Shown piece by piece: positions 21,537-53,094 of a stretch of 64,000 nt of DNA; positions within the stretch are counted from its first letter, which is position 1, and every line of letters starts with the position of its first letter. The DNA is from Trichobilharzia regenti (Eukaryota; Platyhelminthes; Trematoda; Strigeidida; Schistosomatidae). Location: positions 42,939,459 to 43,003,458 of the forward strand of contig OX235265.1 of the NCBI GenBank assembly GCA_944472135.2. Reading direction: 5' to 3'. The notes beneath the pieces are model-generated. The model was given only the letters and a program-made list of their open reading frames with translations, did no database searches and was not told the DNA's origin. The translations under genes were made by a program, and so were the position numbers.

Positions 21537-22842
21537 TTAATTTACACCAAAGATAATCACATTCAAATAGTAACTTGAAAGGCTTTTATTCGTACAAGCC
21601 GGTTTAAGAATTACCCTCTCGTACACACCTGGCTGATCCTCACTAAACTGGCCATTGACTTTCGTCCTTTCAAATGCACCAATACTATCAAAGTCATTGC
21701 ACAAGATACTTGAGTTGATAAGCGTCTGTTTCATCGTGGATGACAACACAAACGACAACTGATTGATAACAGTTGATGAGCGTAGCGGTGGATCAGAAGC
21801 TGTTGTTGTTCGGCTTTCAGGAAATTGTCTACCTGCAAGACCACCACCACTGCTGTCTTTTACTTTTAGTTCGCGTTTAGCACTATCATCTGATGATAGG
21901 TGGGCTACTCGCTGATCAATCACACTGACGGTCTCACAAGTATCCATACCCTCTGCAACTGCATCTCCATTTAATTCTACTTCACGTTGTAGTTGTACAG
22001 AACCTTTATTCAACTCAGCAGTAGTAGGCATTCCCCTTATCTCATCATGATCAACCAAAGACAAATGTGCACTATCATGATCATTATCACAAATATTCAA
22101 TTTACCGTCATCTATCTGGTCGACTCCATCATTTTCAAAACCTTTATCAACAGCAGTAGGTGATTTGGGTTCTTCCTCACAAATCCTAAAAGGTTTTATA
22201 CCTTCACTCTGACTAGTAACACCTTGTAAAGTTGTGGAGTCAGAACTGCACTCTGAAACTGTATCTCATATCTTCTTTGGTGTCGTTTGTTACACTCTAT
22301 TCAACATTATCTTACCGTTTGCATCTGCAGGCTTCTTCACTGCACCATTATCGTCACACAATTCGCAGTCACACCTTGATTTCACACTCAGCTTACCAGG
22401 AAACTTGGTTACAGTTCGCTCTTGTGTGCAACTCGTGCAAATTTGTAAACCGCAACCCTGTCTGTCTCGCAACTTGTAACCTATCTGTTGGGGACGTCCC
22501 ACTAATGCTGTTACACTCACGAAGTCTATGTGGACTGCTAGACACCATAAAGCTTTCTCGATATCCGTTTCGCTGAGACCTTTCCGTCATAAATGATTGC
22601 GGTTCGCACTCAGACTGCTCTATTCTAGGGATGGGATGCTAGATACTGGCAAACCTGCTCGTAGATTGATTGACACTACCTCTCACCAGTTTCAGAATAT
22701 CATCGAACATTGGCTCAATACCTACATCATCTATACGAGAGCTTATCATTACCCACTTACTTTGCAGTCGAAAAGGTAGGCGTCACGCCAATACACCTGG
22801 TTCGGAACTTGAGTTCAGATCACTCATGTACTTCATCGAAAT
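21537..22842 (-). pseudogene. Bel/Pao-like gag remnant, minus strand
   Basis: The C-terminal 187 codons (21537-22100) are open and end in SYYLNVIIFGVN. Upstream the coding sense continues to about 22250, then becomes patchy and more diverged (22290-22850) with frame changes. It is joined at about 22842 to LTR sequence at roughly gag residue 170, so the N-terminal third is missing. The zinc-knuckle region again retains H and the last C (NLHELHTRANC) without a proper CCHC. Confidence 0.75.
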
Positions 22843-22878
22843 CTATGAACAAAAATTACAATAATAAATCACAATACT
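22843..22878 (-). repeat. Left piece of a minus-strand LTR split by the nested element
   Basis: 36 bp of mid-LTR sequence ending acaatact, which continues on the other side of the insertion at 40706. The 5-bp duplication at the junction is atact (22874-22878) versus atata (40706-40710); the LTR consensus there is atatt. Confidence 0.65.
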
Positions 22879-23228
22879 TGTCAATGCTGTTGAAGATTGA
22901 ACGATCAATTCACGGTTGTTTGCTCAAAACCAACTTCCCCAATTTTCGCGGAGGCACCAATACGACAGTAATCGTCACACCTATCTCTGTTCAGAAAGAA
23001 GTCAGTAGAAAACTGTCAGAAGTAATATTGCGATTTGTTATTGTAATATTTGTTCACAGACCTTAGTGTTTATATGTTGGTGTAACCATAAAGAATACTC
23101 GAGTCAACATTTGATGTTTTGGTTTATTCTTCCGTTATTACTCAGCGTTTCTGAAAAAATTCAAGGGACAGCGTGGGCCCGAGCGTAGCGAGAGCTGGGC
23201 ATTAACGGTTTATGAGACGTGACTGACA
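22879..23228 (+). repeat. 5' LTR of the plus-strand gag-only element
   Basis: 350 bp, TGTCAATG...CTGACA, shorter than the 359-bp LTRs by a small internal deletion near ttagtgtttatatg. It is followed by a leader beginning gtttctgacagttgaaac. Confidence 0.85.
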
Positions 23229-23373
23229 GTTTCTGACAGTTGAAACAGATTCTGGCGGATTCCGAGAGTTGGCGAAAGTTTGGACAGTTTCCGTTCATCT
23301 TTCCTGGTACCGGTCAAGTCCTCTTTGAACAAGCAATATCTGGGACTGTTTTGGAATTGAGTCAAGTTCAACA
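23229..23373 (+). promoter_or_regulatory. Leader between LTR and gag, with a possible primer-binding site
   Basis: 145 bp. The stretch tggcggattccgag, starting about 30 bases after the LTR, has the TGG start expected of a tRNA primer-binding site, but it lies further from the LTR than usual. Tentative. Confidence 0.25.
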
Positions 23374-25179
23374 ATGCCTGGGTCAAAGAAGGGACAGAGC
23401 GTCTTGGATGCAAACAGGAAAGTAAGTCATGGTGACTTGTCTGTTAATTGTAACGATGTGTCTGATGTTAAGCATGATATGGTTGATGTTACTGATTCGC
23501 TGTTCAGGGATAATAGGAACATCAAACTCCCTAAATTTGAACCACGGTGTTTTGATGGAAACCCAGCTGATTATATACAATTTGTAAAGGAGTTTGAGAT
23601 CATGTTGAGTAGTTTTCTATTAAGTGATGAATTGAAGTTAATGTATTTGATGAGATATTGCACTGGAGATGCTGCAAGAGCCATACAGTGTTGTAAGTTT
23701 ATGAAGCCAAAAGAGGGCTACAATGAGGCTATGAGCATATTACGTCAAAGGTTTGGAAGACCTTCAATGATTGTAAGGAACGCATACGAAGCTGTCAAAG
23801 GTAACCGCAGTCAGCTTCGAGATGACTCCAAGGCACTTACTGAGTTTTTAGATAATCTTATGACTTATAAGAATACCTTGATTTCTATGAATTGCATGAG
23901 TGACCTCAACTCGAGTTTTATACTAGAAGTAATAGCAAGACGCCTACCTACTCGACTGCAAAGGAAGTGGGTGAAGATAAGCTCCCGTATGGAGGATGAG
24001 GGTATCGAGCCAAAGTTCGACGATATTCTGAAACTGGTAAAAGATAGTGTCAATCAATCTTTGAGCAAGTTTGCCATTATATTGAATCTCACCCCTAGAA
24101 TAGAGCAGTCTGAGAGTAAAATGCAATCACTGATGACGAAAGGGTCTCAGAGAGGTGGATATCGAGAAGGCTATATGGCGTCTAATAATGCATATAGACC
24201 TAGTGAGTGTAACAGATTTCGTAGTACATCCTCAACAGATAAGTTGCAAGATGCAAGACAAACACGGTTGTGTTGTACACGTTTGCAAGAGGTGCATAAA
24301 AGGGTGAGCTGTGAACCAGTGAGCAAGTTCAGTGATAAGCTAAATGTGAACTCCAGGCCTGACTCCGAATTGTGTGACGATAACGGTGCGGTCAAGGTGT
24401 CTGTAGTTGCGACTGGTAAGCCATTGTTGAATAGAGTGTCACAGAATAGAGTTGCTGCTTCAGAGTGCAGTTCTGACTCCATAAGTTTACAAGGTATTAC
24501 TAGTCAGAGTGATGATATAACAGCTTTTAGGATTTGGGAGGAGGAACCAAAATTGTCTACTTCTGTCATTGAAGAGTTTGAAATTAATGAAGTCGACCAG
24601 ATAGATGATGGTAAATTTAACATTTGTGATAATGATGATGATACTTCACAGTTTTCGTTGGTTGATCACGATGAGATGAGGGATATGCCTACTACTGCTA
24701 AATTGAACAAAGGTTCTGTACAACTACAACGTGAAGTAGAAATAAATGCAATTGCAGTTTCAGAAGGCATGCATACTAGTGAGACCGTCATCGTGAGTGA
24801 TCAGCATGTAGCCCACCTATCATCAGATGATAGTGCTAAACGCGAACTAAAAGTAAAAGACAGCAGTGGTGGTGGTCTTGCAGGTAGACAATTTCCTGAA
24901 AGCCGAACAACAACAGCTTCTGATCCACCGCTAAGCTCATCAACTGTTATCAATCAGTTGTCGTTTGCGTTGTCATCCACGATGAAACAGACGCCCATCA
25001 ACTCAAGTATCTTGTGCAATGACTTTGATAGTATTGGTGCATTTGAAAGGACGAAAGTCAATGGCCAGTTTAGTGAGGATCAGCCAGGTGTGTACGAGAG
25101 GGTAATTCTTAAACCGGCTTGTACGAATAAAAGCCTTTCAAGTTACTATTTGAATGTGATTATCTTTGGTGTAAATTAA
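23374..25179 (+). CDS. Bel/Pao-like gag protein, 601 codons, intact
   Basis: Longest intact gag in the window; it would form the capsid-like particle that packages element RNA in the cytoplasm. A short N-terminus MPGSKKGQSV is followed by a DUF1759-like Bel/Pao gag core at about residues 50-230: LPKFEPRCFDGNPADYIQF, YLMRYCTGDAARAIQCC, ILRQRFGRPSMI, ARRLPTRLQRKWV. Residues 300-313 (CCTRLQEVHKRVSC) have the spacing of a CX2CX4HX4C zinc knuckle, but the second Cys is Arg (R303). Residues 380-601 are acidic and Ser/Thr-rich and resemble no domain I know. No protease or pol follows. The start was chosen because the array copies share it and it follows the leader directly. Confidence 0.85.
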   Translation: MPGSKKGQSVLDANRKVSHGDLSVNCNDVSDVKHDMVDVTDSLFRDNRNIKLPKFEPRCFDGNPADYIQFVKEFEIMLSSFLLSDELKLMYLMRYCTGDAARAIQCCKFMKPKEGYNEAMSILRQRFGRPSMIVRNAYEAVKGNRSQLRDDSKALTEFLDNLMTYKNTLISMNCMSDLNSSFILEVIARRLPTRLQRKWVKISSRMEDEGIEPKFDDILKLVKDSVNQSLSKFAIILNLTPRIEQSESKMQSLMTKGSQRGGYREGYMASNNAYRPSECNRFRSTSSTDKLQDARQTRLCCTRLQEVHKRVSCEPVSKFSDKLNVNSRPDSELCDDNGAVKVSVVATGKPLLNRVSQNRVAASECSSDSISLQGITSQSDDITAFRIWEEEPKLSTSVIEEFEINEVDQIDDGKFNICDNDDDTSQFSLVDHDEMRDMPTTAKLNKGSVQLQREVEINAIAVSEGMHTSETVIVSDQHVAHLSSDDSAKRELKVKDSSGGGLAGRQFPESRTTTASDPPLSSSTVINQLSFALSSTMKQTPINSSILCNDFDSIGAFERTKVNGQFSEDQPGVYERVILKPACTNKSLSSYYLNVIIFGVN

Positions 25180-25353
25180 CCTGTAGCCAAGCTTGATCGG
25201 TCACATACGTCGTATGTTTGCTAGTCATCCACATTCCACGATACAATGAAATGGGCGTGTCACCGTTCAGATTTGAGGATATAGCTGATAGAAGGGAGTC
25301 AGCAAATGAACTCTGTGACGATTTTCCAACCTAGGGCGTCAACCTAAGATGGG

Positions 25354-25768
25354 TTGTAGGCGTACTGCTGTAAGTCCTACAATTCTTCAAAGGGTAGCGC
25401 ATCAACAAGCAGCCCAACGTGCTTGGTGTGTGATTTTGTACATATGTTCATGTTGCATATGCTGGATTGATATCATCTTTCATCTGTCTGTTGATAATTT
25501 TTGTTTGTGTACGGACGTCTTCCACTTGTGTTATCAACCTGAGAAGGAATGTAGGCGTACTGCTGTAAGTCCTACAGTTCTTCAAGGGTAGTTCATCAAG
25601 GCAGAAACCACAACATTTGATGTCTTGATTGTACATATGTTTGTGTTAAATAATTGAGTGGGTTTCAAATAATGTAATTGTTCGTTAATCTCGTTTGTGT
25701 CCCGACATTCTTCAACCTACAATCGTCAACCTGAGAAGGGTTGCAGGCGTACTGATGTAAGTCCTGCG
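25354..25768 (+). repeat. Hairpin triplet, third copy
   Basis: Hairpins at 25354-25382, 25550-25576 and 25742-25768, identical in layout to 4964-5378 at an offset of 20390 bp. Confidence 0.7.
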
Positions 25769-26473
25769 ATTCTTCACAGGAATTCCATCAAGACATGATC
25801 TGCGAGGTTATGTGTACTGTTTGTATATACGTGTGGTGTGTCATATCAATTGGTGATTTTGGATTCATTGTGTTTACTCGTTGTTTTCGTACCTTGTTGT
25901 TATTGCATAATTTTGTTAAAATTTTCGTTGTGCTTACTTCTGAAGTTGATTCTAGTCTTCTGCATTCGTGAGTGAATTGATTGATGTTAAAGACAGCAGA
26001 TGGGTCGTATACGCCGGGGAGGCTATTGCTGAGAATGATATGCATACGGAGATAATTGTTAGCTGCGGTCCCACACACCGGCGAGAAAGAGTGTAAACGA
26101 CTGAGGCTCGCATACGTCACCGTTACTAGAACTGAGGCAGAATGAGTGACAAGCGATTGCAGTGGTAATTGGTAGTGAGCAGATAAGAGGATGTTCGAAG
26201 AGTATCATGAGGTGCTGCTATGGTCACGTTTCATTCTGCAGGAGTCATTCTAGCAAGTGGCGATTTTGTTGAATGAGAATGCGTTCAACTGTAAGGCGCA
26301 GTTCGTCATCGATGTGTGAGATTGTGCTGTGAGTATGCCTGTGGTGTGTTGGCTTTTCTGTTTGTTTTCCATTTCAGCTTTGTCCGTGTGACCGAGGTTC
26401 TCGCAATGGCATCCAAGTCAACGTGTATTGGTCGTGATGGAAAAAAGGATTAGATCCGCTTTTTGCCGGGGAG

Positions 26474-26675
26474 TGTCAATGTAGTTGAAGATTGAACGAT
26501 CAATTCACGGTTGTCTGCTCAAACCCAACTTCCCCAATTTTCGCGGAGGCATCGATCAGCAGGTCATCGTCTTATCGGTCGCTGTTCAGAAAGAAGTCAG
26601 GAGAAAACCGTCAGAAGTAATATTGTGATTTGTTATTGTAATATTTGTTCACAGACCATAGTGTTCATATGATGG
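26474..26675 (+). repeat. First piece of the split 3' LTR (plus-strand element)
   Basis: 202 bp following the ccggggag polypurine tract. It ends in gatgg (26671-26675), the left target duplication of the array insertion. The rest of the LTR is at 40553-40705. Confidence 0.82.
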
Positions 26676-26880
26676 TATAAATCACGTCTCAAAAACCGTT
26701 AATGCCCAGCTCTCGCTGCGCTCGGGCCCACGCTGTTCCTTGAAGATTTCAGAAATTCTTAGTTATAGCGGACGAAAAAACCAAAACACCGATCTGCCGC
26801 TTGAGATTTCTTTATTGTTACACCAACATATAAAAATTATAACTGAACTAAGGTCTGTAAACAAATATTACAATAATAAA

Positions 26881-28032
26881 TCATAAGATTACTTCACTCT
26901 GACTAGTAATACCTTGTAAACTTGTGGAGTCAGAACTGCACTCTGAAGCAGCAACTCTATTCTGTGACACTCTATTCAACAATGGCTTACCAGTCGCAAC
27001 TACAGACACCTTGACCGCACCGTTATCGTCACACAATTCGGAGTCAGGCCTGGAGTTCACATTTAGCTTATCACTGAACTTGCTCACTGGTTCACAGCTC
27101 ACCCTTTTATGCACCTCTTGCAAACGTGTACAACACAACCGTGTTTGTCTTGCATCTTGCAACTTATCTGTTGAGGATGTACTACGAAATCTGTTACACT
27201 CACTAGGTCTATATGCATTATTAGACGCCATATAGCCTTCTCGATATCCACCTCTCTGAGACCCTTTCGTCATCAGTGATTGCATTTTACTCTCAGACTG
27301 CTCTATTCTAGGGGTGAGATTCAATATAATGGCAAACTTGCTCAAAGATTGATTGACACTATCTTTTACCAGTTTCAGAATATCGTCGAACATTGGCTCG
27401 ATACCCTCATCCTCCATACGGGAGCTTATCTTCACCCACTTCCTTTGCAGTCGAGTAGGTAGGCGTCTTGCTATTACTTCTAGTATAAAACTCGAGTTGA
27501 GGTCACTCATGCAATTCATAGAAATCAAGGTATTCTTATAAGTCATAAGATTATCTAAAAACTCAGTAAGTGCCTTGGAGTCATCTCGAAGCTGACTGCG
27601 GTTACCTTTGACAGCTTCGTATGCGTTCCTTACAATCATTGAAGGTCTTCCAAACCTTTGACGTAATATGCTCATAGCCTCATTGTAGCCCTCTTTTGGC
27701 TTCATAAACTTACAACACTGTATGGCTCTTGCAGCATCTCCAGTGCAATATCTCATCAAATACATTAACTTCAATTCATCACTTAATAGAAAACTACTCA
27801 ACATGATCTCAAACTCCTTTACAAATTGTATATAATCAGCTGGGTTTCCATCGAAACACCGTGGTTCAAATTTAGGGAGTTTGATGTTCCTATTATCCCT
27901 GAACAGCGAGTCAGTAACATCAACCATATCATGCTTAACATCAGACACATCGTTACAATTAACAGACAAGTCACCATGACTTACTTTCCTGTTTGCATCC
28001 AAGACGCTCTGTCCCTTCTTTGACCCAGGCAT
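26881..28032 (-). CDS. Truncated gag, array unit 1
   Basis: 383 codons. Residues 1-379 match the intact gag at 23374; the final EVIL and the stop are encoded by mid-LTR sequence fused to gag. Contains the gag core (50-230) and the degenerate knuckle C300/R303/H308/C313; lacks the acidic C-terminal 220 residues. Unit-specific change K214M in the EPKFDD motif. Farthest from the full LTR, so the oldest end of the array if it grew by LTR exchange. Confidence 0.8.
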   Translation of the reverse strand: MPGSKKGQSVLDANRKVSHGDLSVNCNDVSDVKHDMVDVTDSLFRDNRNIKLPKFEPRCFDGNPADYIQFVKEFEIMLSSFLLSDELKLMYLMRYCTGDAARAIQCCKFMKPKEGYNEAMSILRQRFGRPSMIVRNAYEAVKGNRSQLRDDSKALTEFLDNLMTYKNTLISMNCMSDLNSSFILEVIARRLPTRLQRKWVKISSRMEDEGIEPMFDDILKLVKDSVNQSLSKFAIILNLTPRIEQSESKMQSLMTKGSQRGGYREGYMASNNAYRPSECNRFRSTSSTDKLQDARQTRLCCTRLQEVHKRVSCEPVSKFSDKLNVNSRPDSELCDDNGAVKVSVVATGKPLLNRVSQNRVAASECSSDSTSLQGITSQSEVIL

Positions 28033-28382
28033 TGTTGAACTTGACTCAATTCCAAAACAGTTCCAGATATTGCTTGTTCAAAGAGGACTTGACCGGTACC
28101 AGGAAAGATGAACGGAAACTGTCCAAACTTTCGCCAACTCTCGGAATCCGCCAGAATCTGTTTCAACTGTCAGAAACTGTCAGTCACGTCTCATAAACCG
28201 TTAATGCCCAGCTCTCGCTACGCTCGGGCCCACGCTGTTCCTTGAAGATTTCAGAAATTCTTAGTTATAGCGGACGAAAAAACCAAAACACCGATCTGCC
28301 GCTTGAGATTTCTTTATTGTTACACCAACATATAAAAATTATAACTGAACTAAGGTCTGTAAACAAATATTACAATAATAAA

Positions 28383-29534
28383 TCATAAGATTACTTCACT
28401 CTGACTAGTAATACCTTGTAAACTTGTGGAGTCAGAACTGCACTCTGAAGCAGCAACTCTATTCTGTGACACTCTATTCAACAATGGCTTACCAGTCGCA
28501 ACTACAGACACCTTGACCGCACCGTTATCGTCACACAATTCGGAGTCAGGCCTGGAGTTCACATTTAGCTTATCACTGAACTTGCTCACTGGTTCACAGC
28601 TCACCCTTTTATGCACCTCTTGCAAACGTGTACAACACAACCGTGTTTGTCTTGCATCTTGCAACTTATCTGTTGAGGATGTACTACGAAATCTGTTACA
28701 CTCACTAGGTCTATATGCATTATTAGACGCCATATAGCCTTCTCGATATCCACCTCTCTGAGACCCTTTCGTCATCAGTGATTGCATTTTACTCTCAGAC
28801 TGCTCTATTCTAGGGGTGAGATTCAATATAATGGCAAACTTGCTCAAAGATTGATTGACACTATCTTTTACCAGTTTCAGAATATCGTCGAACTTTGGCT
28901 CGATACCCTCATCCTCCATACGGGAGCTTATCTTCACCCACTTCCTTTGCAGTCGAGTAGGTAGGCGTCTTGCTATTACTTCTAGTATAAAACTCGAGTT
29001 GAGGTCACTCATGCAATTCATAGAAATCAAGGTATTCTTATAAGTCATAAGATTATCTAAAAACTCAGTAAGTGCCTTGGAGTCATCTCGAAGCTGACTG
29101 CGGTTACCTTTGACAGCTTCGTATGCGTTCCTTACAATCATTGAAGGTCTTCCAAACCTTTGACGTAATATGCTCATAGCCTCATTGTAGCCCTCTTTTG
29201 GCTTCATAAACTTACAACACTGTATGGCTCTTGCAGCATCTCCAGTGCAATATCTCATCAAATACATTAACTTCAATTCATCACTTAATAGAAAACTACT
29301 CAACATGATCTCAAACTCCTTTACAAATTGTATATAATCAGCTGGGTTTCCATCAAAACACCGTGGTTCAAATTTAGGGAGTTTGATGTTCCTATTATCC
29401 CTGAACAGCGAATCAGTAACATCAACCATATCATGCTTAACATCAGACACATCGTTACAATTAACAGACAAGTCACCATGACTTACTTTCCTGTTTGCAT
29501 CCAAGACGCTCTGTCCCTTCTTTGACCCAGGCAT
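28383..29534 (-). CDS. Truncated gag, array unit 2
   Basis: 383 codons, same architecture and LTR-encoded tail as unit 1, with the family lysine at 214. Carries the silent Asp-61 codon variant (ccatcaaaac on the plus strand) also found in units 3, 5 and 6. Confidence 0.8.
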   Translation of the reverse strand: MPGSKKGQSVLDANRKVSHGDLSVNCNDVSDVKHDMVDVTDSLFRDNRNIKLPKFEPRCFDGNPADYIQFVKEFEIMLSSFLLSDELKLMYLMRYCTGDAARAIQCCKFMKPKEGYNEAMSILRQRFGRPSMIVRNAYEAVKGNRSQLRDDSKALTEFLDNLMTYKNTLISMNCMSDLNSSFILEVIARRLPTRLQRKWVKISSRMEDEGIEPKFDDILKLVKDSVNQSLSKFAIILNLTPRIEQSESKMQSLMTKGSQRGGYREGYMASNNAYRPSECNRFRSTSSTDKLQDARQTRLCCTRLQEVHKRVSCEPVSKFSDKLNVNSRPDSELCDDNGAVKVSVVATGKPLLNRVSQNRVAASECSSDSTSLQGITSQSEVIL

Positions 29535-29884
29535 TGTTGAACTTGACTCAATTCCAAAACAGTTCCAGATATTGCTTGTTCAAAGAGGACTTGACCGGTA
29601 CCAGGAAAGATGAACGGAAACTGTCCAAACTTTCGCCAACTCTCGGAATCCGCCAGAATCTGTTTCAACTGTCAGAAACTGTCAGTCACGTCTCATAAAC
29701 CGTTAATGCCCAGCTCTCGCTATGCTCGGGCCCACGCTGTTCCTTGAAGATTTCAGAAATTCTTAGTTATAGCGGACGAAAAAACCAAAACACCGATCTG
29801 CCGCTTGAGATTTCTTTATTGTTACACCAACATATAAAAATTATAACTGAACTAAGGTCTGTAAACAAATATTACAATAATAAA

Positions 29885-31036
29885 TCATAAGATTACTTCA
29901 CTCTGACTAGTAATACCTTGTAAACTTGTGGAGTCAGAACTGCACTCTGAAGCAGCAACTCTATTCTGTGACACTCTATTCAACAATGGCTTACCAGTCG
30001 CAACTACAGACACCTTGACCGCACCGTTATCGTCACACAATTCGGAGTCAGGCCTGGAGTTCACATTTAGCTTATCACTGAACTTGCTCACTGGTTCACA
30101 GCTCACCCTTTTATGCACCTCTTGCAAACGTGTACAACACAACCGTGTTTGTCTTGCATCTTGCAACTTATCTGTTGAGGATGTACTACGAAATCTGTTA
30201 CACTCACTAGGTCTATATGCATTATTAGACGCCATATAGCCTTCTCGATATCCACCTCTCTGAGACCCTTTCGTCATCAGTGATTGCATTTTACTCTCAG
30301 ACTGCTCTATTCTAGGGGTGAGATTCAATATAATGGCAAACTTGCTCAAAGATTGATTGACACTATCTTTTACCAGTTTCAGAATATCGTCGAACTTTGG
30401 CTCGATACCCTCATCCTCCATACGGGAGCTTATCTTCACCCACTTCCTTTGCAGTCGAGTAGGTAGGCGTCTTGCTATTACTTCTAGTATAAAACTCGAG
30501 TTGAGGTCACTCATGCAATTCATAGAAATCAAGGTATTCTTATAAGTCATAAGATTATCTAAAAACTCAGTAAGTGCCTTGGAGTCATCTCGAAGCTGAC
30601 TGCGGTTACCTTTGACAGCTTCGTATGCGTTCCTTACAATCATTGAAGGTCTTCCAAACCTTTGACGTAATATGCTCATAGCCTCATTGTAGCCCTCTTT
30701 TGGCTTCATAAACTTACAACACTGTATGGCTCTTGCAGCATCTCCAGTGCAATATCTCATCAAATACATTAACTTCAATTCATCACTTAATAGAAAACTA
30801 CTCAACATGATCTCAAACTCCTTTACAAATTGTATATAATCAGCTGGGTTTCCATCAAAACACCGTGGTTCAAATTTAGGGAGTTTGATGTTCCTATTAT
30901 CCCTGAACAGCGAATCAGTAACATCAACCATATCATGCTTAACATCAGACACATCGTTACAATTAACAGACAAGTCACCATGACTTACTTTCCTGTTTGC
31001 ATCCAAGACGCTCTGTCCCTTCTTTGACCCAGGCAT
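29885..31036 (-). CDS. Truncated gag, array unit 3
   Basis: 383 codons, protein identical to unit 2. Shares with unit 2 the silent variant near codon 61 and a following LTR variant (gctatgctc for gctacgctc), suggesting that these two neighbours were copied from each other. Confidence 0.8.
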   Translation of the reverse strand: MPGSKKGQSVLDANRKVSHGDLSVNCNDVSDVKHDMVDVTDSLFRDNRNIKLPKFEPRCFDGNPADYIQFVKEFEIMLSSFLLSDELKLMYLMRYCTGDAARAIQCCKFMKPKEGYNEAMSILRQRFGRPSMIVRNAYEAVKGNRSQLRDDSKALTEFLDNLMTYKNTLISMNCMSDLNSSFILEVIARRLPTRLQRKWVKISSRMEDEGIEPKFDDILKLVKDSVNQSLSKFAIILNLTPRIEQSESKMQSLMTKGSQRGGYREGYMASNNAYRPSECNRFRSTSSTDKLQDARQTRLCCTRLQEVHKRVSCEPVSKFSDKLNVNSRPDSELCDDNGAVKVSVVATGKPLLNRVSQNRVAASECSSDSTSLQGITSQSEVIL

Positions 31037-31386
31037 TGTTGAACTTGACTCAATTCCAAAACAGTTCCAGATATTGCTTGTTCAAAGAGGACTTGACCGG
31101 TACCAGGAAAGATGAACGGAAACTGTCCAAACTTTCGCCAACTCTCGGAATCCGCCAGAATCTGTTTCAACTGTCAGAAACTGTCAGTCACGTCTCATAA
31201 ACCGTTAATGCCCAGCTCTCGCTATGCTCGGGCCCACGCTGTTCCTTGAAGATTTCAGAAATTCTTAGTTATAGCGGACGAAAAAACCAAAACACCGATC
31301 TGCCGCTTGAGATTTCTTTATTGTTACACCAACATATAAAAATTATAACTGAACTAAGGTCTGTAAACAAATATTACAATAATAAA

Positions 31387-32538
31387 TCATAAGATTACTT
31401 CACTCTGACTAGTAATACCTTGTAAACTTGTGGAGTCAGAACTGCACTCTGAAGCAGCAACTCTATTCTGTGACACTCTATTCAACAATGGCTTACCAGT
31501 CGCAACTACAGACACCTTGACCGCACCGTTATCGTCACACAATTCGGAGTCAGGCCTGGAGTTCACATTTAGCTTATCACTGAACTTGCTCACTGGTTCA
31601 CAGCTCACCCTTTTATGCACCTCTTGCAAACGTGTACAACACAACCGTGTTTGTCTTGCATCTTGCAACTTATCTGTTGAGGATGTACTACGAAATCTGT
31701 TACACTCACTAGGTCTATATGCATTATTAGACGCCATATAGCCTTCTCGATATCCACCTCTCTGAGACCCTTTCGTCATCAGTGATTGCATTTTACTCTC
31801 AGACTGCTCTATTCTAGGGGTGAGATTCAATATAATGGCAAACTTGCTCAAAGATTGATTGACACTATCTTTTACCAGTTTCAGAATATCGTCGAACTTT
31901 GGCTCGATACCCTCATCCTCCATACGGGAGCTTATCTTCACCCACTTCCTTTGCAGTCGAGTAGGTAGGCGTCTTGCTATTACTTCTAGTATAAAACTCG
32001 AGTTGAGGTCACTCATGCAATTCATAGAAATCAAGGTATTCTTATAAGTCATAAGATTATCTAAAAACTCAGTAAGTGCCTTGGAGTCATCTCGAAGCTG
32101 ACTGCGGTTACCTTTGACAGCTTCGTATGCGTTCCTTACAATCATTGAAGGTCTTCCAAACCTTTGACGTAATATGCTCATAGCCTCATTGTAGCCCTCT
32201 TTTGGCTTCATAAACTTACAACACTGTATGGCTCTTGCAGCATCTCCAGTGCAATATCTCATCAAATACATTAACTTCAATTCATCACTTAATAGAAAAC
32301 TACTCAACATGATCTCAAACTCCTTTACAAATTGTATATAATCAGCTGGGTTTCCATCGAAACACCGTGGTTCAAATTTAGGGAGTTTGATGTTCCTATT
32401 ATCCCTGAACAGCGAATCAGTAACATCAACCATATCATGCTTAACATCAGACACATCGTTACAATTAACAGACAAGTCACCATGACTTACTTTCCTGTTT
32501 GCATCCAAGACGCTCTGTCCCTTCTTTGACCCAGGCAT
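31387..32538 (-). CDS. Truncated gag, array unit 4
   Basis: 383 codons, protein identical to unit 2. Carries the ccatcgaaac form at codon 61. Confidence 0.8.
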   Translation of the reverse strand: MPGSKKGQSVLDANRKVSHGDLSVNCNDVSDVKHDMVDVTDSLFRDNRNIKLPKFEPRCFDGNPADYIQFVKEFEIMLSSFLLSDELKLMYLMRYCTGDAARAIQCCKFMKPKEGYNEAMSILRQRFGRPSMIVRNAYEAVKGNRSQLRDDSKALTEFLDNLMTYKNTLISMNCMSDLNSSFILEVIARRLPTRLQRKWVKISSRMEDEGIEPKFDDILKLVKDSVNQSLSKFAIILNLTPRIEQSESKMQSLMTKGSQRGGYREGYMASNNAYRPSECNRFRSTSSTDKLQDARQTRLCCTRLQEVHKRVSCEPVSKFSDKLNVNSRPDSELCDDNGAVKVSVVATGKPLLNRVSQNRVAASECSSDSTSLQGITSQSEVIL

Positions 32539-32888
32539 TGTTGAACTTGACTCAATTCCAAAACAGTTCCAGATATTGCTTGTTCAAAGAGGACTTGACC
32601 GGTACCAGGAAAGATGAACGGAAACTGTCCAAACTTTCGCCAACTCTCGGAATCCGCCAGAATCTGTTTCAACTGTCAGAAACTGTCAGTCACGTCTCAT
32701 AAACCGTTAATGCCCAGCTCTCGCTACGCTCGGGCCCACGCTGTTCCTTGAAGATTTCAGAAATTCTTAGTTATAGCGGACGAAAAAACCAAAACACCGA
32801 TCTGCCGCTTGAGATTTCTTTATTGTTACACCAACATATAAAAATTATAACTGAACTAAGGTCTGTAAACAAATATTACAATAATAAA

Positions 32889-34040
32889 TCATAAGATTAC
32901 TTCACTCTGACTAGTAATACCTTGTAAACTTGTGGAGTCAGAACTGCACTCTGAAGCAGCAACTCTATTCTGTGACACTCTATTCAACAATGGCTTACCA
33001 GTCGCAACTACAGACACCTTGACCGCACCGTTATCGTCACACAATTCGGAGTCAGGCCTGGAGTTCACATTTAGCTTATCACTGAACTTGCTCACTGGTT
33101 CACAGCTCACCCTTTTATGCACCTCTTGCAAACGTGTACAACACAACCGTGTTTGTCTTGCATCTTGCAACTTATCTGTTGAGGATGTACTACGAAATCT
33201 GTTACACTCACTAGGTCTATATGCATTATTAGACGCCATATAGCCTTCTCGATATCCACCTCTCTGAGACCCTTTCGTCATCAGTGATTGCATTTTACTC
33301 TCAGACTGCTCTATTCTAGGGGTGAGATTCAATATAATGGCAAACTTGCTCAAAGATTGATTGACACTATCTTTTACCAGTTTCAGAATATCGTCGAACT
33401 TTGGCTCGATACCCTCATCCTCCATACGGGAGCTTATCTTCACCCACTTCCTTTGCAGTCGAGTAGGTAGGCGTCTTGCTATTACTTCTAGTATAAAACT
33501 CGAGTTGAGGTCACTCATGCAATTCATAGAAATCAAGGTATTCTTATAAGTCATAAGATTATCTAAAAACTCAGTAAGTGCCTTGGAGTCATCTCGAAGC
33601 TGACTGCGGTTACCTTTGACAGCTTCGTATGCGTTCCTTACAATCATTGAAGGTCTTCCAAACCTTTGACGTAATATGCTCATAGCCTCATTGTAGCCCT
33701 CTTTTGGCTTCATAAACTTACAACACTGTATGGCTCTTGCAGCATCTCCAGTGCAATATCTCATCAAATACATTAACTTCAATTCATCACTTAATAGAAA
33801 ACTACTCAACATGATCTCAAACTCCTTTACAAATTGTATATAATCAGCTGGGTTTCCATCAAAACACCGTGGTTCAAATTTAGGGAGTTTGATGTTCCTA
33901 TTATCCCTGAACAGCGAATCAGTAACATCAACCATATCATGCTTAACATCAGACACATCGTTACAATTAACAGACAAGTCACCATGACTTACTTTCCTGT
34001 TTGCATCCAAGACGCTCTGTCCCTTCTTTGACCCAGGCAT
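32889..34040 (-). CDS. Truncated gag, array unit 5
   Basis: 383 codons, protein identical to unit 2. Carries the ccatcaaaac form at codon 61. Confidence 0.8.
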   Translation of the reverse strand: MPGSKKGQSVLDANRKVSHGDLSVNCNDVSDVKHDMVDVTDSLFRDNRNIKLPKFEPRCFDGNPADYIQFVKEFEIMLSSFLLSDELKLMYLMRYCTGDAARAIQCCKFMKPKEGYNEAMSILRQRFGRPSMIVRNAYEAVKGNRSQLRDDSKALTEFLDNLMTYKNTLISMNCMSDLNSSFILEVIARRLPTRLQRKWVKISSRMEDEGIEPKFDDILKLVKDSVNQSLSKFAIILNLTPRIEQSESKMQSLMTKGSQRGGYREGYMASNNAYRPSECNRFRSTSSTDKLQDARQTRLCCTRLQEVHKRVSCEPVSKFSDKLNVNSRPDSELCDDNGAVKVSVVATGKPLLNRVSQNRVAASECSSDSTSLQGITSQSEVIL

Positions 34041-34390
34041 TGTTGAACTTGACTCAATTCCAAAACAGTTCCAGATATTGCTTGTTCAAAGAGGACTTGA
34101 CCGGTACCAGGAAAGATGAACGGAAACTGTCCAAACTTTCGCCAACTCTCGGAATCCGCCAGAATCTGTTTCAACTGTCAGAAACTGTCAGTCACGTCTC
34201 ATAAACCGTTAATGCCCAGCTCTCGCTACGCTCGGGCCCACGCTGTTCCTTGAAGATTTCAGAAATTCTTAGTTATAGCGGACGAAAAAACCAAAACACC
34301 GATCTGCCGCTTGAGATTTCTTTATTGTTACACCAACATATAAAAATTATAACTGAACTAAGGTCTGTAAACAAATATTACAATAATAAA

Positions 34391-35542
34391 TCATAAGATT
34401 ACTTCACTCTGACTAGTAATACCTTGTAAACTTGTGGAGTCAGAACTGCACTCTGAAGCAGCAACTCTATTCTGTGACACTCTATTCAACAATGGCTTAC
34501 CAGTCGCAACTACAGACACCTTGACCGCACCGTTATCGTCACACAATTCGGAGTCAGGCCTGGAGTTCACATTTAGCTTATCACTGAACTTGCTCACTGG
34601 TTCACAGCTCACCCTTTTATGCACCTCTTGCAAACGTGTACAACACAACCGTGTTTGTCTTGCATCTTGCAACTTATCTGTTGAGGATGTACTACGAAAT
34701 CTGTTACACTCACTAGGTCTATATGCATTATTAGACGCCATATAGCCTTCTCGATATCCACCTCTCTGAGACCCTTTCGTCATCAGTGATTGCATTTTAC
34801 TCTCAGACTGCTCTATTCTAGGGGTGAGATTCAATATAATGGCAAACTTGCTCAAAGATTGATTGACACTATCTTTTACCAGTTTCAGAATATCGTCGAA
34901 CTTTGGCTCGATACCCTCATCCTCCATACGGGAGCTTATCTTCACCCACTTCCTTTGCAGTCGAGTAGGTAGGCGTCTTGCTATTACTTCTAGTATAAAA
35001 CTCGAGTTGAGGTCACTCATGCAATTCATAGAAATCAAGGTATTCTTATAAGTCATAAGATTATCTAAAAACTCAGTAAGTGCCTTGGAGTCATCTCGAA
35101 GCTGACTGCGGTTACCTTTGACAGCTTCGTATGCGTTCCTTACAATCATTGAAGGTCTTCCAAACCTTTGACGTAATATGCTCATAGCCTCATTGTAGCC
35201 CTCTTTTGGCTTCATAAACTTACAACACTGTATGGCTCTTGCAGCATCTCCAGTGCAATATCTCATCAAATACATTAACTTCAATTCATCACTTAATAGA
35301 AAACTACTCAACATGATCTCAAACTCCTTTACAAATTGTATATAATCAGCTGGGTTTCCATCAAAACACCGTGGTTCAAATTTAGGGAGTTTGATGTTCC
35401 TATTATCCCTGAACAGCGAATCAGTAACATCAACCATATCATGCTTAACATCAGACACATCGTTACAATTAACAGACAAGTCACCATGACTTACTTTCCT
35501 GTTTGCATCCAAGACGCTCTGTCCCTTCTTTGACCCAGGCAT
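34391..35542 (-). CDS. Truncated gag, array unit 6
   Basis: 383 codons, protein identical to unit 2. Carries the ccatcaaaac form at codon 61. Confidence 0.8.
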   Translation of the reverse strand: MPGSKKGQSVLDANRKVSHGDLSVNCNDVSDVKHDMVDVTDSLFRDNRNIKLPKFEPRCFDGNPADYIQFVKEFEIMLSSFLLSDELKLMYLMRYCTGDAARAIQCCKFMKPKEGYNEAMSILRQRFGRPSMIVRNAYEAVKGNRSQLRDDSKALTEFLDNLMTYKNTLISMNCMSDLNSSFILEVIARRLPTRLQRKWVKISSRMEDEGIEPKFDDILKLVKDSVNQSLSKFAIILNLTPRIEQSESKMQSLMTKGSQRGGYREGYMASNNAYRPSECNRFRSTSSTDKLQDARQTRLCCTRLQEVHKRVSCEPVSKFSDKLNVNSRPDSELCDDNGAVKVSVVATGKPLLNRVSQNRVAASECSSDSTSLQGITSQSEVIL

Positions 35543-35892
35543 TGTTGAACTTGACTCAATTCCAAAACAGTTCCAGATATTGCTTGTTCAAAGAGGACTT
35601 GACCGGTACCAGGAAAGATGAACGGAAACTGTCCAAACTTTCGCCAACTCTCGGAATCCGCCAGAATCTGTTTCAACTGTCAGAAACTGTCAGTCACGTC
35701 TCATAAACCGTTAATGCCCAGCTCTCGCTACGCTCGGGCCCACGCTGTTCCTTGAAGATTTCAGAAATTCTTAGTTATAGCGGACGAAAAAACCAAAACA
35801 CCGATCTGCCGCTTGAGATTTCTTTATTGTTACACCAACATATAAAAATTATAACTGAACTAAGGTCTGTAAACAAATATTACAATAATAAA

Positions 35893-37044
35893 TCATAAGA
35901 TTACTTCACTCTGACTAGTAATACCTTGTAAACTTGTGGAGTCAGAACTGCACTCTGAAGCAGCAACTCTATTCTGTGACACTCTATTCAACAATGGCTT
36001 ACCAGTTGCAACTACAGACACCTTGACCGCACCGTTATCGTCACACAATTCGGAGTCAGGCCTGGAGTTCACATTTAGCTTATCACTGAACTTGCTCACT
36101 GGTTCACAGCTCACCCTTTTATGCACCTCTTGCAAACGTGTACAACACAACCGTGTTTGTCTTGCATCTTGCAACTTATCTGTTGAGGATGTACTACGAA
36201 ATCTGTTACACTCACTAGGTCTATATGCATTATTAGACGCCATATAGCCTTCTCGATATCCACCTCTCTGAGACCCTTTCGTCATCAGTGATTGCATTTT
36301 ACTCTCAGACTGCTCTATTCTAGGGGTGAGATTCAATATAATGGCAAACTTGCTCAAAGATTGATTGACACTATCTTTTACCAGTTTCAGAATATCGTCG
36401 AACTTTGGCTCGATACCCTCATCCTCCATACGGGAGCTTATCTTCACCCACTTCCTTTGCAGTCGAGTAGGTAGGCGTCTTGCTATTACTTCTAGTATAA
36501 AACTCGAGTTGAGGTCACTCATGCAATTCATAGAAATCAAGGTATTCTTATAAGTCATAAGATTATCTAAAAACTCAGTAAGTGCCTTGGAGTCATCTCG
36601 AAGCTGACTGCGGTTACCTTTGACAGCTTCGTATGCGTTCCTTACAATCATTGAAGGTCTTCCAAACCTTTGACGTAATATGCTCATAGCCTCATTGTAG
36701 CCCTCTTTTGGCTTCATAAACTTACAACACTGTATGGCTCTTGCAGCATCTCCAGTGCAATATCTCATCAAATACATTAACTTCAATTCATCACTTAATA
36801 GAAAACTACTCAACATGATCTCAAACTCCTTTACAAATTGTATATAATCAGCTGGGTTTCCATCGAAACACCGTGGTTCAAATTTAGGGAGTTTGATGTT
36901 CCTATTATCCCTGAACAGCGAATCAGTAACATCAACCATATCATGCTTAACATCAGACACATCGTTACAATTAACAGACAAGTCACCATGACTTACTTTC
37001 CTGTTTGCATCCAAGACGCTCTGTCCCTTCTTTGACCCAGGCAT
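35893..37044 (-). CDS. Truncated gag, array unit 7
   Basis: 383 codons, protein identical to unit 2. Private silent change at ~36006 (accagttgc for accagtcgc); ccatcgaaac form at codon 61. Confidence 0.8.
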   Translation of the reverse strand: MPGSKKGQSVLDANRKVSHGDLSVNCNDVSDVKHDMVDVTDSLFRDNRNIKLPKFEPRCFDGNPADYIQFVKEFEIMLSSFLLSDELKLMYLMRYCTGDAARAIQCCKFMKPKEGYNEAMSILRQRFGRPSMIVRNAYEAVKGNRSQLRDDSKALTEFLDNLMTYKNTLISMNCMSDLNSSFILEVIARRLPTRLQRKWVKISSRMEDEGIEPKFDDILKLVKDSVNQSLSKFAIILNLTPRIEQSESKMQSLMTKGSQRGGYREGYMASNNAYRPSECNRFRSTSSTDKLQDARQTRLCCTRLQEVHKRVSCEPVSKFSDKLNVNSRPDSELCDDNGAVKVSVVATGKPLLNRVSQNRVAASECSSDSTSLQGITSQSEVIL

Positions 37045-37394
37045 TGTTGAACTTGACTCAATTCCAAAACAGTTCCAGATATTGCTTGTTCAAAGAGGAC
37101 TTGACCGGTACCAGGAAAGATGAACGGAAACTGTCCAAACTTTCGCCAACTCTCGGAATCCGCCAGAATCTGTTTCAACTGTCAGAAACTGTCAGTCACG
37201 TCTCATAAACCGTTAATGCCCAGCTCTCGCTACGCTCGGGCCCACGCTGTTCCTTGAAGATTTCAGAAATTCTTAGTTATAGCGGACGAAAAAACCAAAA
37301 CACCGATCTGCCGCTTGAGATTTCTTTATTGTTACACCAACATATAAAAATTATAACTGAACTAAGGTCTGTAAACAAATATTACAATAATAAA

Positions 37395-38546
37395 TCATAA
37401 GATTACTTCACTCTGACTAGTAATACCTTGTAAACTTGTGGAGTCAGAACTGCACTCTGAAGCAGCAACTCTATTCTGTGACACTCTATTCAACAATGGC
37501 TTACCAGTCGCAACTACAGACACCTTGACCGCACCGTTATCGTCACACAATTCGGAGTCAGGCCTGGAGTTCACATTTAGCTTATCACTGAACTTGCTCA
37601 CTGGTTCACAGCTCACCCTTTTATGCACCTCTTGCAAACGTGTACAACACAACCGTGTTTGTCTTGCATCTTGCAACTTATCTGTTGAGGATGTACTACG
37701 AAATCTGTTACACTCACTAGGTCTATATGCATTATTAGACGCCATATAGCCTTCTCGATATCCACCTCTCTGAGACCCTTTCGTCATCAGTGATTGCATT
37801 TTACTCTCAGACTGCTCTATTCTAGGGGTGAGATTCAATATAATGGCAAACTTGCTCAAAGATTGATTGACACTATCTTTTACCAGTTTCAGAATATCGT
37901 CGAACTTTGGCTCGATACCCTCATCCTCCATACGGGAGCTTATCTTCACCCACTTCCTTTGCAGTCGAGTAGGTAGGCGTCTTGCTATTACTTCTAGTAT
38001 AAAACTCGAGTTGAGGTCACTCATGCAATTCATAGAAATCAAGGTATTCTTATAAGTCATAAGATTATCTAAAAACTCAGTAAGTGCCTTGGAGTCATCT
38101 CGAAGCTGACTGCGGTTACCTTTGACAGCTTCGTATGCGTTCCTTACAATCATTGAAGGTCTTCCAAACCTTTGACGTAATATGCTCATAGCCTCATTGT
38201 AGCCCTCTTTTGGCTTCATAAACTTACAACACTGTATGGCTCTTGCAGCATCTCCAGTGCAATATCTCATCAAATACATTAACTTCAATTCATCACTTAA
38301 TAGAAAACTACTCAACATGATCTCAAACTCCTTTACAAATTGTATATAATCAGCTGGGTTTCCATCGAAACACCAGGGTTCAAATTTAGGGAGTTTGATG
38401 TTCCTATTATCCCTGAACAGCGAATCAGTAACATCAACCATATCATGCTTAACATCAGACACATCGTTACAATTAACAGACAAGTCACCATGACTTACTT
38501 TCCTGTTTGCATCCAAGACGCTCTGTCCCTTCTTTGACCCAGGCAT
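37395..38546 (-). CDS. Truncated gag, array unit 8
   Basis: 383 codons. Private R58W in the FEPRCFDG motif; otherwise identical to unit 2. ccatcgaaac form at codon 61. Confidence 0.8.
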   Translation of the reverse strand: MPGSKKGQSVLDANRKVSHGDLSVNCNDVSDVKHDMVDVTDSLFRDNRNIKLPKFEPWCFDGNPADYIQFVKEFEIMLSSFLLSDELKLMYLMRYCTGDAARAIQCCKFMKPKEGYNEAMSILRQRFGRPSMIVRNAYEAVKGNRSQLRDDSKALTEFLDNLMTYKNTLISMNCMSDLNSSFILEVIARRLPTRLQRKWVKISSRMEDEGIEPKFDDILKLVKDSVNQSLSKFAIILNLTPRIEQSESKMQSLMTKGSQRGGYREGYMASNNAYRPSECNRFRSTSSTDKLQDARQTRLCCTRLQEVHKRVSCEPVSKFSDKLNVNSRPDSELCDDNGAVKVSVVATGKPLLNRVSQNRVAASECSSDSTSLQGITSQSEVIL

Positions 38547-38896
38547 TGTTGAACTTGACTCAATTCCAAAACAGTTCCAGATATTGCTTGTTCAAAGAGG
38601 ACTTGACCGGTACCAGGAAAGATGAACGGAAACTGTCCAAACTTTCGCCAACTCTCGGAATCCGCCAGAATCTGTTTCAACTGTCAGAAACTGTCAGTCA
38701 CGTCTCATAAACCGTTAATGCCCAGCTCTCGCTACGCTCGGGCCCACGCTGTTCCTTGAAGATTTCAGAAATTCTTAGTTATAGCGGACGAAAAAACCAA
38801 AACACCGATCTGCCGCTTGAGATTTCTTTATTGTTACACCAACATATAAAAATTATAACTGAACTAAGGTCTGTAAACAAATATTACAATAATAAA

Positions 38897-40048
38897 TCAT
38901 AAGATTACTTCACTCTGACTAGTAATACCTTGTAAACTTGTGGAGTCAGAACTGCACTCTGAAGCAGCAACTCTATTCTGTGACACTCTATTCAACAATG
39001 GCTTACCAGTCGCAACTACAGACACCTTGACCGCACCGTTATCGTCACACAATTCGGAGTCAGGCCTGGAGTTCACATTTAGCTTATCACTGAACTTGCT
39101 CACTGGTTCACAGCTCACCCTTTTATGCACCTCTTGCAAACGTGTACAACACAACCGTGTTTGTCTTGCATCTTGCAACTTATCTGTTGAGGATGTACTA
39201 CGAAATCTGTTACACTCACTAGGTCTATATGCATTATTAGACGCCATATAGCCTTCTCGATATCCACCTCTCTGAGACCCTTTCGTCATCAGTGATTGCA
39301 TTTTACTCTCAGACTGCTCTATTCTAGGGGTGAGATTCAATATAATGGCAAACTTGCTCAAAGATTGATTGACACTATCTTTTACCAGTTTCAGAATATC
39401 GTCGAACTTTGGCTCGATACCCTCATCCTCCATACGGGAGCTTATCTTCACCCACTTCCTTTGCAGTCGAGTAGGTAGGCGTCTTGCTATTACTTCTAGT
39501 ATAAAACTCGAGTTGAGGTCACTCATGCAATTCATAGAAATCAAGGTATTCTTATAAGTCATAAGATTATCTAAAAACTCAGTAAGTGCCTTGGAGTCAT
39601 CTCGAAGCTGACTGCGGTTACCTTTGACAGCTTCGTATGCGTTCCTTACAATCATTGAAGGTCTTCCAAACCTTTGACGTAATATGCTCATAGCCTCATT
39701 GTAGCCCTCTTTTGGCTTCATAAACTTACAACACTGTATGGCTCTTGCAGCATCTCCAGTGCAATATCTCATCAAATACATTAACTTCAATTCATCACTT
39801 AATAGAAAACTACTCAACATGATCTCAAACTCCTTTACAAATTGTATATAATCAGCTGGGTTTCCATCGAAACACCGTGGTTCAAATTTAGGGAGTTTGA
39901 TGTTCCTATTATCCCTGAACAGCGAATCAGTAACATCAACCATATCATGCTTAACATCAGACACATCGTTACAATTAACAGACAAGTCACCATGACTTAC
40001 TTTCCTGTTTGCATCCAAGACGCTCTGTCCCTTCTTTGACCCAGGCAT
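38897..40048 (-). CDS. Truncated gag, array unit 9, next to the complete 5' LTR
   Basis: 383 codons, protein identical to unit 2. It is the only unit preceded by a complete LTR (40194-40552), with a 146-bp leader between, so the one most likely to be driven by a full promoter. Confidence 0.82.
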   Translation of the reverse strand: MPGSKKGQSVLDANRKVSHGDLSVNCNDVSDVKHDMVDVTDSLFRDNRNIKLPKFEPRCFDGNPADYIQFVKEFEIMLSSFLLSDELKLMYLMRYCTGDAARAIQCCKFMKPKEGYNEAMSILRQRFGRPSMIVRNAYEAVKGNRSQLRDDSKALTEFLDNLMTYKNTLISMNCMSDLNSSFILEVIARRLPTRLQRKWVKISSRMEDEGIEPKFDDILKLVKDSVNQSLSKFAIILNLTPRIEQSESKMQSLMTKGSQRGGYREGYMASNNAYRPSECNRFRSTSSTDKLQDARQTRLCCTRLQEVHKRVSCEPVSKFSDKLNVNSRPDSELCDDNGAVKVSVVATGKPLLNRVSQNRVAASECSSDSTSLQGITSQSEVIL

Positions 40049-40193
40049 TGTTGAACTTGACTCAATTCCAAAACAGTTCCAGATATTGCTTGTTCAAAGA
40101 GGACTTGACCGGTACCAGGAAAGATGAACGGAAACTGTCCAAACTTTCGCCAACTCTCGGAATCCGCCAGAATCTGTTTCAACTGTCAGAAAC

Positions 40194-40552
40194 TGTCAGT
40201 CACGTCTCATAAACCGTTAATGCCCAGCTCTCGCTACGCTCGGGCCCACGCTGTTCCTTGAAGATTTCAGAAATTCTTAGTTATAGCGGACGAAAAACCA
40301 AAACACCGATCTGCCGCTTGAGATTTCTTTATTGTTACACCAACATATAAAAATTATAACTGAACTAAGGTCTGTAAACAAATATTACAATAATAAATCA
40401 TAGTATTACTGCTGATGGTTTGCTACTGACTTCATTCTGAACAGCCAACGATGAGACGATGTCTGTCGTATTCATGCCTCCGCGAAAATTGTGGAAGTTG
40501 ATTGTGAGCAAGCAAACGTGAATTGATGGTTCAATCTTCAACTCCATTGACA
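40194..40552 (-). repeat. Complete 5' LTR of the array insertion
   Basis: 359 bp, minus orientation, outer end at 40552 abutting the target duplication gttgg. Its U3-side part (40396-40552) occurs nowhere else in the array, because all other units carry only the 3' 218 bp. Confidence 0.85.
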
Positions 40553-40705
40553 GTTGGTGTAACCATAAATAATACTCGTGTCAACAATTGGTGTTTTGGT
40601 TTTTTCTTCCGTTATTACTAAGCGTTTCTGAAAAAATTCAAGGGACAGCGTGAGCCCGAGCGGAGCAAGAGCTGAGCATTAACGGTTTACGAGACGAGAC
40701 TGACA
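40553..40705 (+). repeat. Second piece of the split 3' LTR (plus-strand element)
   Basis: 153 bp including the 5-bp duplication gttgg; ends ...gagactgaca. It completes the LTR begun at 26474. Confidence 0.8.
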
Positions 40706-40857
40706 ATATAATTTCTGACGGTTTTCTCCTGACTTCTTTCTGAACAGCGACCGATAAAACGATGACCTGCTGATCGATGCCTCCGCGAAAATTGGGGAAG
40801 TTGGGTTTGAGCAAACAACCACGAATTGATCGTTCAATCTTCAACTACATTGACACT
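40706..40857 (-). repeat. Right piece of the minus-strand LTR split by the 22879-40705 element
   Basis: Continues the LTR fragment at 22843-22878; its outer end borders the reversed polypurine tract ctccccggc. 40858-41340 is the matching internal 3' sequence. Confidence 0.75.
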
Positions 40858-52986: not shown

Positions 52987-53094
52987 CACTAAACTTGACC
53001 AAACAGTCCAGTAAAGTTCCAGATAACATTTGTCCAAAGAAGACGGGCAGACACGAGGAAAGACGAACAGAAACTATCCAAAACTATCAGAAAC

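Follow-up and report, generated by a model that had tools for sequence, protein, structure and literature searches.

The locus analysed here raises the question of whether tandem long terminal repeat (LTR) elements integrate ready-made or are built up after insertion. In a 64,000-nucleotide stretch of the genome of the flatworm Trichobilharzia regenti, a blood fluke that parasitises birds (C4:42939459-43003458 of a 954-Mb assembly with 548 contigs; hereafter, the window), nine nearly identical units, each with a truncated gag fused to a partial LTR, stand head to tail behind one full LTR. A previous interpretation made from the letters alone (the sequence-only reading) had taken this array for one integrated retroelement that expanded when its full 5′ LTR and partial 3′ LTR underwent unequal exchange, and overall our analysis supports it. 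We propose that a gag-only LTR retrotransposon copy integrated into the 3′ LTR of a related copy; that a short-homology deletion, either during reverse transcription or after integration, would have removed the part from mid-gag to mid-3′ LTR; that unequal exchange between the full 5′ LTR and the partial 3′ LTR would have turned one unit into nine; and that gene conversion may have passed the LTR end, the leader and gag of the array, up to the exact fusion point, to the surrounding element. We infer the order of these steps as well as the addition of units by exchange rather than by a circular intermediate. To the reading of a nested gag-only copy, truncated by deletion and expanded in place by unequal LTR exchange, we assign a probability of about 0.8. 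New relative to the sequence-only reading are the nesting of the array in a related family copy, the gag-only structure of complete family copies, the tandem arrays of whole elements at other loci, and a gag tract shared by the array and the surrounding element.

In a comparison at lag 1502, the repetitive block extended from 26671 to ~40.3 kb, and the array occupies 26676-40552. Its length is exactly 9 x 1502 bp plus a 359-bp LTR, as had been claimed, and it is composed as follows.

26676-40552, minus strand: whole inserted array, with the 5′ LTR at the right end, nine gag~partial-LTR units, and the 3′ end at the left
40194-40552, minus strand: sole full LTR of the array (5′ LTR, 359 bp)
38692-40193, minus strand: unit 9, first after the 5′ LTR; gag 38897-40048; partial LTR 38692-38909
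37190-38691, minus strand: unit 8; gag 37395-38546
35688-37189, minus strand: unit 7; gag 35893-37044
34186-35687, minus strand: unit 6; gag 34391-35542
32684-34185, minus strand: unit 5; gag 32889-34040
31182-32683, minus strand: unit 4; gag 31387-32538
29680-31181, minus strand: unit 3; gag 29885-31036
28178-29679, minus strand: unit 2; gag 28383-29534
26676-28177, minus strand: unit 1, outermost (3′ end); gag 26881-28032

Based on the list of open reading frames (ORFs), all nine gag frames are open and encode 383 aa on the minus strand, again in line with the sequence-only reading. Its description of the LTRs held in part: the array has a single full LTR and nine partial LTRs of 218 bp with identical extent in 9/9 units (LTR positions 143-359, with one additional base in a T run), i.e., all internal LTRs are incomplete and retain 217 of the 359 positions; however, the outer end of unit 1 reads TATAAA, versus TGTCAG in the other array copies, and is no clean terminus. 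Unit 1 has five changes that are absent from the other units, all in the last 43 bp of its LTR part. Because the solo LTR at 56520-56877 shows a similar variant end (TGTAAA), the outer end of unit 1 looks like an LTR end with later changes.

Among the nine units, pairs differ at 0-9 of the 1502 bases (mean 3.2) and, among units 2-9, at 0-4 (mean 1.75). Such likeness is also what an assembler could produce by expanding fewer real units, or only one. However, the variants among the units are not periodic (unit site 325 reads C T T C T T C C C, and column 175 of the partial LTR varies in units 3 and 4 only), the window contains no N and lies within a 108-Mb contig, and separate arrays of the same family exist at several other loci. 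We therefore regard an assembly artefact as highly improbable.

The array is embedded in an LTR of another member of its family. The sequences that flank it are 202-bp and 153-bp parts of one LTR of 350 bp and sum to 355 bp, i.e., 350 + 5; it follows that the array interrupts the 3′ LTR of a related element, relative to which it is inverted, with a 5-bp duplication of the target. The empty site was deduced from the sister LTR of the surrounding element. The features of the insertion site are listed below.

26671-26675, no strand: left copy of the target duplication, GATGG
40553-40557, no strand: right copy of the target duplication, GTTGG
22879-23228, plus strand: 5′ LTR of the surrounding element, 350 bp
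23374-25179, plus strand: gag frame of the surrounding element, 601 aa, DUF1759; preceded by the leader
26474-26675, plus strand: 3′ LTR of the surrounding element, left part, first 202 bp
40553-40705, plus strand: 3′ LTR of the surrounding element, right part, last 153 bp
40706-40855, minus strand: LTR part in the other orientation, probable target of the surrounding element (other part, 22844-22878)

The 5-bp duplication that the sequence-only reading placed at the array bounds is present with one mismatch. At least four matches in five flanking bases have a chance of ~0.016, and the split host LTR is stronger evidence for insertion than the 5-mer match itself; together, the duplication and the exactly split 350-bp target bear out a single integration. 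Duplications of this length also accompany other family members: a perfect one surrounds the copy at 2790-6450 in the window (ATGCA/ATGCA), a near-perfect one the solo LTR at 56520-56877 (ACAAC/ACAGC), and a perfect one the copy C2:86896067-86900033 (CTGAT/CTGAT). The surrounding element was itself probably inserted in another LTR (22844-22878 and 40706-40855), with a weak duplication (ATACT/ATATA). Prompted by the resemblance of TATAAA to host sequence, we considered that the left boundary arose by a simple crossover in the host LTR without integration. We rejected this idea because, at the same position in the target, the right end of the array coincides exactly with an LTR end, and because of the similar variant end of the solo LTR.

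The inserted element belongs to a family whose complete mapped copies have gag and no pol. They consist of an LTR, a leader, gag, ~1.3 kb of noncoding sequence and a second LTR, ~4 kb in total, and in these copies the same 1.3-kb region separates gag from the 3′ LTR. For instance, the C2 copy at 86896067-86900033 has two LTRs that are 99.2% alike, a gag ORF of 651 aa and no pol, which is the composition of a TR-GAG-type element. In the surrounding element, the region after gag (25180-26473) contains no ORF of at least 150 aa and no Pao-type pol (protease, reverse transcriptase, RNase H, integrase). We assume that a pol-bearing helper serves the family. Gag, of which one array frame was scanned, contains a DUF1759 domain (PF03564; E value, 2.6e-13), and we take this kind of gag to be linked to BEL/Pao elements. 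No zinc-knuckle family was among the Pfam matches of Gag, and a stretch containing C and H near residue 300 was noticed by eye only; a triple Cys-His box in Gag is described as a BEL/Pao feature in the available part of the Sinbad paper (PMC554778). The 383-aa Gag has 52 protein relatives, of which 49 bear the name T. regenti and 2 T. szidati; the name of the remaining one is truncated to 'Trichob'. The longest aligned family Gags have 637-663 aa, and four of the six database proteins in the alignment, from both species, terminate in DDFPT. By eye, a hydrophobic C-terminal stretch is kept between T. regenti and T. szidati in the longest Gags (last 60 residues of P0008/P0015); the Gag of the surrounding element stops earlier and has a different C-terminus. 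A hammerhead or other RNA motif in the LTR, as in the retrozyme idea, was rejected, as no Rfam match at gathering score was found anywhere in the window.

In every unit, gag is fused to a truncated 3′ LTR, as the sequence-only reading had stated. A 34-base pattern across the join, with up to three mismatches allowed, matched nine times in the 954-Mb assembly, always in the array, and the reversed control did not match; thus, the fused form has not spread in the assembly. Compared with the family Gag, each unit lacks ~270 C-terminal residues; it also lacks the 3′ noncoding part and 142 bp of LTR sequence. At the fusion point, gag of the relatives reads AGTGAAGTTATAAAA or AGTGAAGATATA, their LTR mostly GTCAGAAGTAATATT(A/G)TG, and the array AGTGAAGTAATCTTATG. 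The word GAAGT at this point is common to the first of these gag types, present in some relatives (AGTGAAGTTATA), and the family LTR (GTCAGAAGTAAT) and may be the short homology of the proposed deletion. An independent gag-to-LTR fusion was observed at C273:146967-148196 (within C273:146613-148552), where an LTR is followed by the leader-gag tract (1284 bp), which breaks off at its position 1226 and is joined directly to a complete LTR that is shared with the adjoining normal unit.

If the array grew by unequal exchange between the 5′ LTR and the partial 3′ LTR, then the internal LTRs should be of the 3′ type up to the crossover and of the 5′ type beyond it, while the outermost partial LTR stays of the 3′ type. 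The full 5′ LTR and the LTR part of unit 1 differ at 8 of 218 columns (7, 8, 114, 176, 202, 213, 215, and 217). Units 2-9 all (8/8) have the unit-1, or 3′, state at columns 7, 8, and 114 and the 5′-LTR state at columns 176, 202, 213, 215, and 217, implying a crossover between columns 115 and 175; column 175 is a further varying column of the partial LTR. These two-type internal LTRs support the claimed mode of expansion. Changes private to the edges of the array, combined with homogenisation of its interior, would give the same LTR pattern, and both readings require exchange after insertion.

Tandem arrays of the same family were found at other loci. These loci were picked for clustered matches and therefore provide no measure of tandem frequency. 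The first array on C3 (C3:95152035-95166808) has four gag-only units with a period of ~3606 bp, five shared complete LTRs, and the flanks TCATT/TCCTT (one mismatch). Three gag units are present at C5:46.14 Mb, three complete units with a period of 3595 bp at C4:93.97 Mb, and three complete units with a period of ~7117 bp and an insert at C3:52.28 Mb (the second C3 array); C8 has a more tangled form of shared-LTR rows. Internal LTRs that are shared between units, and one target duplication that bounds the whole row, were found for the window array and for the first C3 array. In the latter, the 14 sites private to the 5′-most unit all lie at internal positions 40-1549 and the 15 events private to the 3′-most unit all at 1763-3181 (ordering, p = 2.6e-6), while 31 further sites have other patterns. 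Because the private sites of the outer units separate fully, the interior units appear to be chimeras of the two outer units, with a breakpoint between the two groups of sites. The LTRs of the first C3 array have the same polarity at all four columns at which the outer LTRs differ.

Several observations weigh against the proposed history. In the window array, the LTR terminus at the left is degenerate, one base of the duplication is mismatched, and at the fusion the base that follows AAT matches neither parent type seen. Perfect sorting of the eight LTR columns has a chance of 1/56, or 1/21 if columns 7 and 8 are one event, which is modest by itself. A one-LTR circle reinserted by homology would produce an identical chimera. 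In the first C3 array, the internal LTRs at columns 335 and 339 are unlike both outer LTRs, and the chimera ordering was not seen in the C5, C4, and second C3 arrays (p = 0.87, 0.92, and 0.87, respectively). As it held in one of the four sister tandem arrays tested, we dropped this ordering as a general rule of the family. Growth by unequal exchange is thus well supported in one sister array, is consistent with the window array, and is unseen in three.

The three arrays without the ordering also favour the view that a multimer was formed before integration, by template-switching reverse transcription or by read-through of a one-LTR circle, and was inserted whole as a concatemer. The single 5-bp duplication is equally compatible with this view, and the mechanism is among those considered for plant tandem LTR elements in the available parts of two studies (PMC11899658, PMC7215508). 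However, a concatemer would have had LTR parts that were alike at insertion, with later changes scattered among them. Instead, unit 1 accounts for five differences, all within its last 43 columns; the 5′ LTR homology accounts for three, all within its first 114 columns; and a single site sets units 3 and 4 apart. Otherwise, the units are nearly uniform. We therefore consider insertion of a ready-made multimer unlikely and favour expansion in place.

Two further rows of LTRs were observed at the sister loci. At C5:46133244-46139306, three family LTRs are spaced 2853 bp apart, with no gag or 3′ region detected between them, and are followed by three normal units. At C8:70980386-70981673, a complete LTR is accompanied by five partial copies, arranged head to tail, that cover its first 187 positions, which reads as an amplification of the first LTR half alone.

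The array and the surrounding element share more than their family. Over 1284 bp that comprise the leader and gag up to the fusion point (23229-24512), the surrounding element is 99.8% identical to the array unit, with 2-5 differences per 1284 sites relative to individual units, and at the fusion point the similarity stops at once. The best other copy among those scored (39 of 8970 candidates, a list in which the array itself was absent) reaches 95.9%. Between the LTRs of the surrounding element and those of the array, identity is 83.8% in U3 (the first LTR section) and 80.0% in the middle part; over its final 61 bp, however, the 5′ LTR of the surrounding element matches the array at every base, while the 3′ LTR of that element is 90.2% like this end. 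From this distribution, the shared tract likely arose by gene conversion. In its 3′ half, the surrounding element shares long identical or near-identical stretches with two other window copies, arguing for frequent conversion or recent copying within this cluster.

Identity does not reveal a direction; it would equally be seen if the tract had passed from the surrounding element to the array, perhaps at a time when the array was one unit. Several sites bear on this alternative. The LTR-end type GTGGGCCC, GTTTATGAG is found in the array, the 5′ LTR of the host, the nearest LTR relatives of the array on C2 and C8, and the second C3 array; the 3′ LTR of the host has GTGAGCCC and GTTTACGAG, as in most other relatives aligned. 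Thus, over its final 61 bp, the host 5′ LTR is of the array type and differs from the host's own 3′ LTR. At unit site 1183, the host and eight of the nine units have G, while unit 7 and 12/12 relatives have A; the array therefore holds both states and the host only the derived one. At sites 116 and 1254, the base of the host is private to it, and the array state is found in 12/12 and 11/12 relatives, respectively. We had considered site 325, at which the host and units 2, 3, 5, and 6 have T, as proof of direction; this was dropped, since T occurs in 5/12 relatives and a site so variable among relatives is without direction, which tells against our reading. Based on these few sites, the array was, on balance, probably the donor and the host the recipient; transfer in the reverse direction is possible and appears doubtful to us.

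Between an array unit and the window copy at 3149-4789, the nonsynonymous divergence (dN) is 0.09 and the synonymous divergence (dS) 0.30, and relative to three other window copies dN/dS ratios are ~0.5-0.6. These ratios argue that the gag family has been under some constraint; the units are too alike for such a test inside the array. The partial LTR retains an AATAAA at a place that is invariant across the units, and each unit could be a transcription unit with a leader, an open truncated gag, and this AATAAA. Structure prediction for Gag (AlphaFold) gave a mean predicted local distance difference test (pLDDT) score of 39.5 and no usable model. One possibility is that the truncated Gag is inhibitory. 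Going further, the array could be a coding satellite at birth that is already active, with nine truncated Gags interfering with capsids of the parent family, the array rewriting gag of its neighbours, and copy number controlled by recombination alone; we consider this very unlikely. Satellite DNA consists of long arrays, usually at many loci, whereas the junction described here is found at one locus, nine times. The array may show how a mobile element in an animal begins to become a gene-bearing satellite, and it shares sequence with a neighbour, likely via conversion.

The comparisons that follow refer to the available passages of the papers cited. Among the systems nearest to the array are CRM1TR and CRM4TR, tandem repeats from centromeric retrotransposons of maize, whose units also consist of an LTR part and downstream sequence and for which a similar model was proposed: an LTR-untranslated region~LTR founder formed by illegitimate recombination, with growth by LTR conversion or exchange (PMC3648361). 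However, their units contain an LTR and an untranslated region, while the T. regenti unit has an open gag; no short direct repeats were found for a one-step junction, while the array junction has a shared 5-bp word; and the array retains a single full LTR and a target duplication, while the words 'target site' are absent from that paper's text (PMC3648361). Tandem LTR retrotransposons of rice and other plants are likewise head to tail, with shared internal LTRs and one target duplication that marks one insertion; in them, LTRs alternate with internal regions, in contrast to the truncated LTR fused to gag in the nine units here (PMC11899658). Whether the plant elements insert as tandems or arise by later recombination is left open in that 2025 study, which also mentions kangaroo centromeres and Drosophila (PMC11899658), and the array bears on this question. 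Cassandra forms arrays of up to 12 near-identical LTR-internal units, with the same two candidate mechanisms, but has no gag and carries 5S sequences (PMC7215508). The TR-GAG elements (Chaparro et al. 2015, cited in PMC10025401) resemble the T. regenti family in being non-autonomous and in having LTRs and a gag domain; they were described in plants, whereas this family is from a flatworm and has a DUF1759 gag. Sinbad, a Pao/BEL element of the related fluke Schistosoma mansoni, has LTRs of 386 bp; it differs in its 6,287 bp with protease, reverse transcriptase, RNase H, and integrase, which are lacking in the ~4-kb mapped family copies (PMC554778). In Lathyrus, satellites derive from tandem repeats inside LTR elements (PMC7004042). 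A literature search of titles and abstract openings, covering few subscription papers, found no flatworm tandem array that codes for gag. Both tandem LTR elements and tandem repeats derived from LTRs are thus known already; new is the gag-coding, truncated-LTR unit with an insertion scar, in a flatworm. Because the founder scar, the target, the junction, and the two-type LTRs are preserved in one place, the order of events is readable.

Other family copies in the window have features of their own. In the copy at 2790-6450, the LTR directly adjoins gag from its ~170th base, without a leader or gag start. Adjacent to the array, an inverted repeat of 2.2 kb (20046-22267 and 24449-26670; 97% alike) is made up of the 3′ halves of two family copies. 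In the 3′ noncoding part at 25339-25835, three spaced repeats of ~110 bp have a hairpin-like core, GTAGG..CCTAC (GCAGG..CCTGC in one copy), and the same repeats are present in the minus-strand copy at 20881-21377. Finally, the inverted related segments at 17171-20680 and 51724-55096 each contain a family LTR, a gag start, and an adjoining reverse-transcriptase-like frame, which we presume to be CR1-like.

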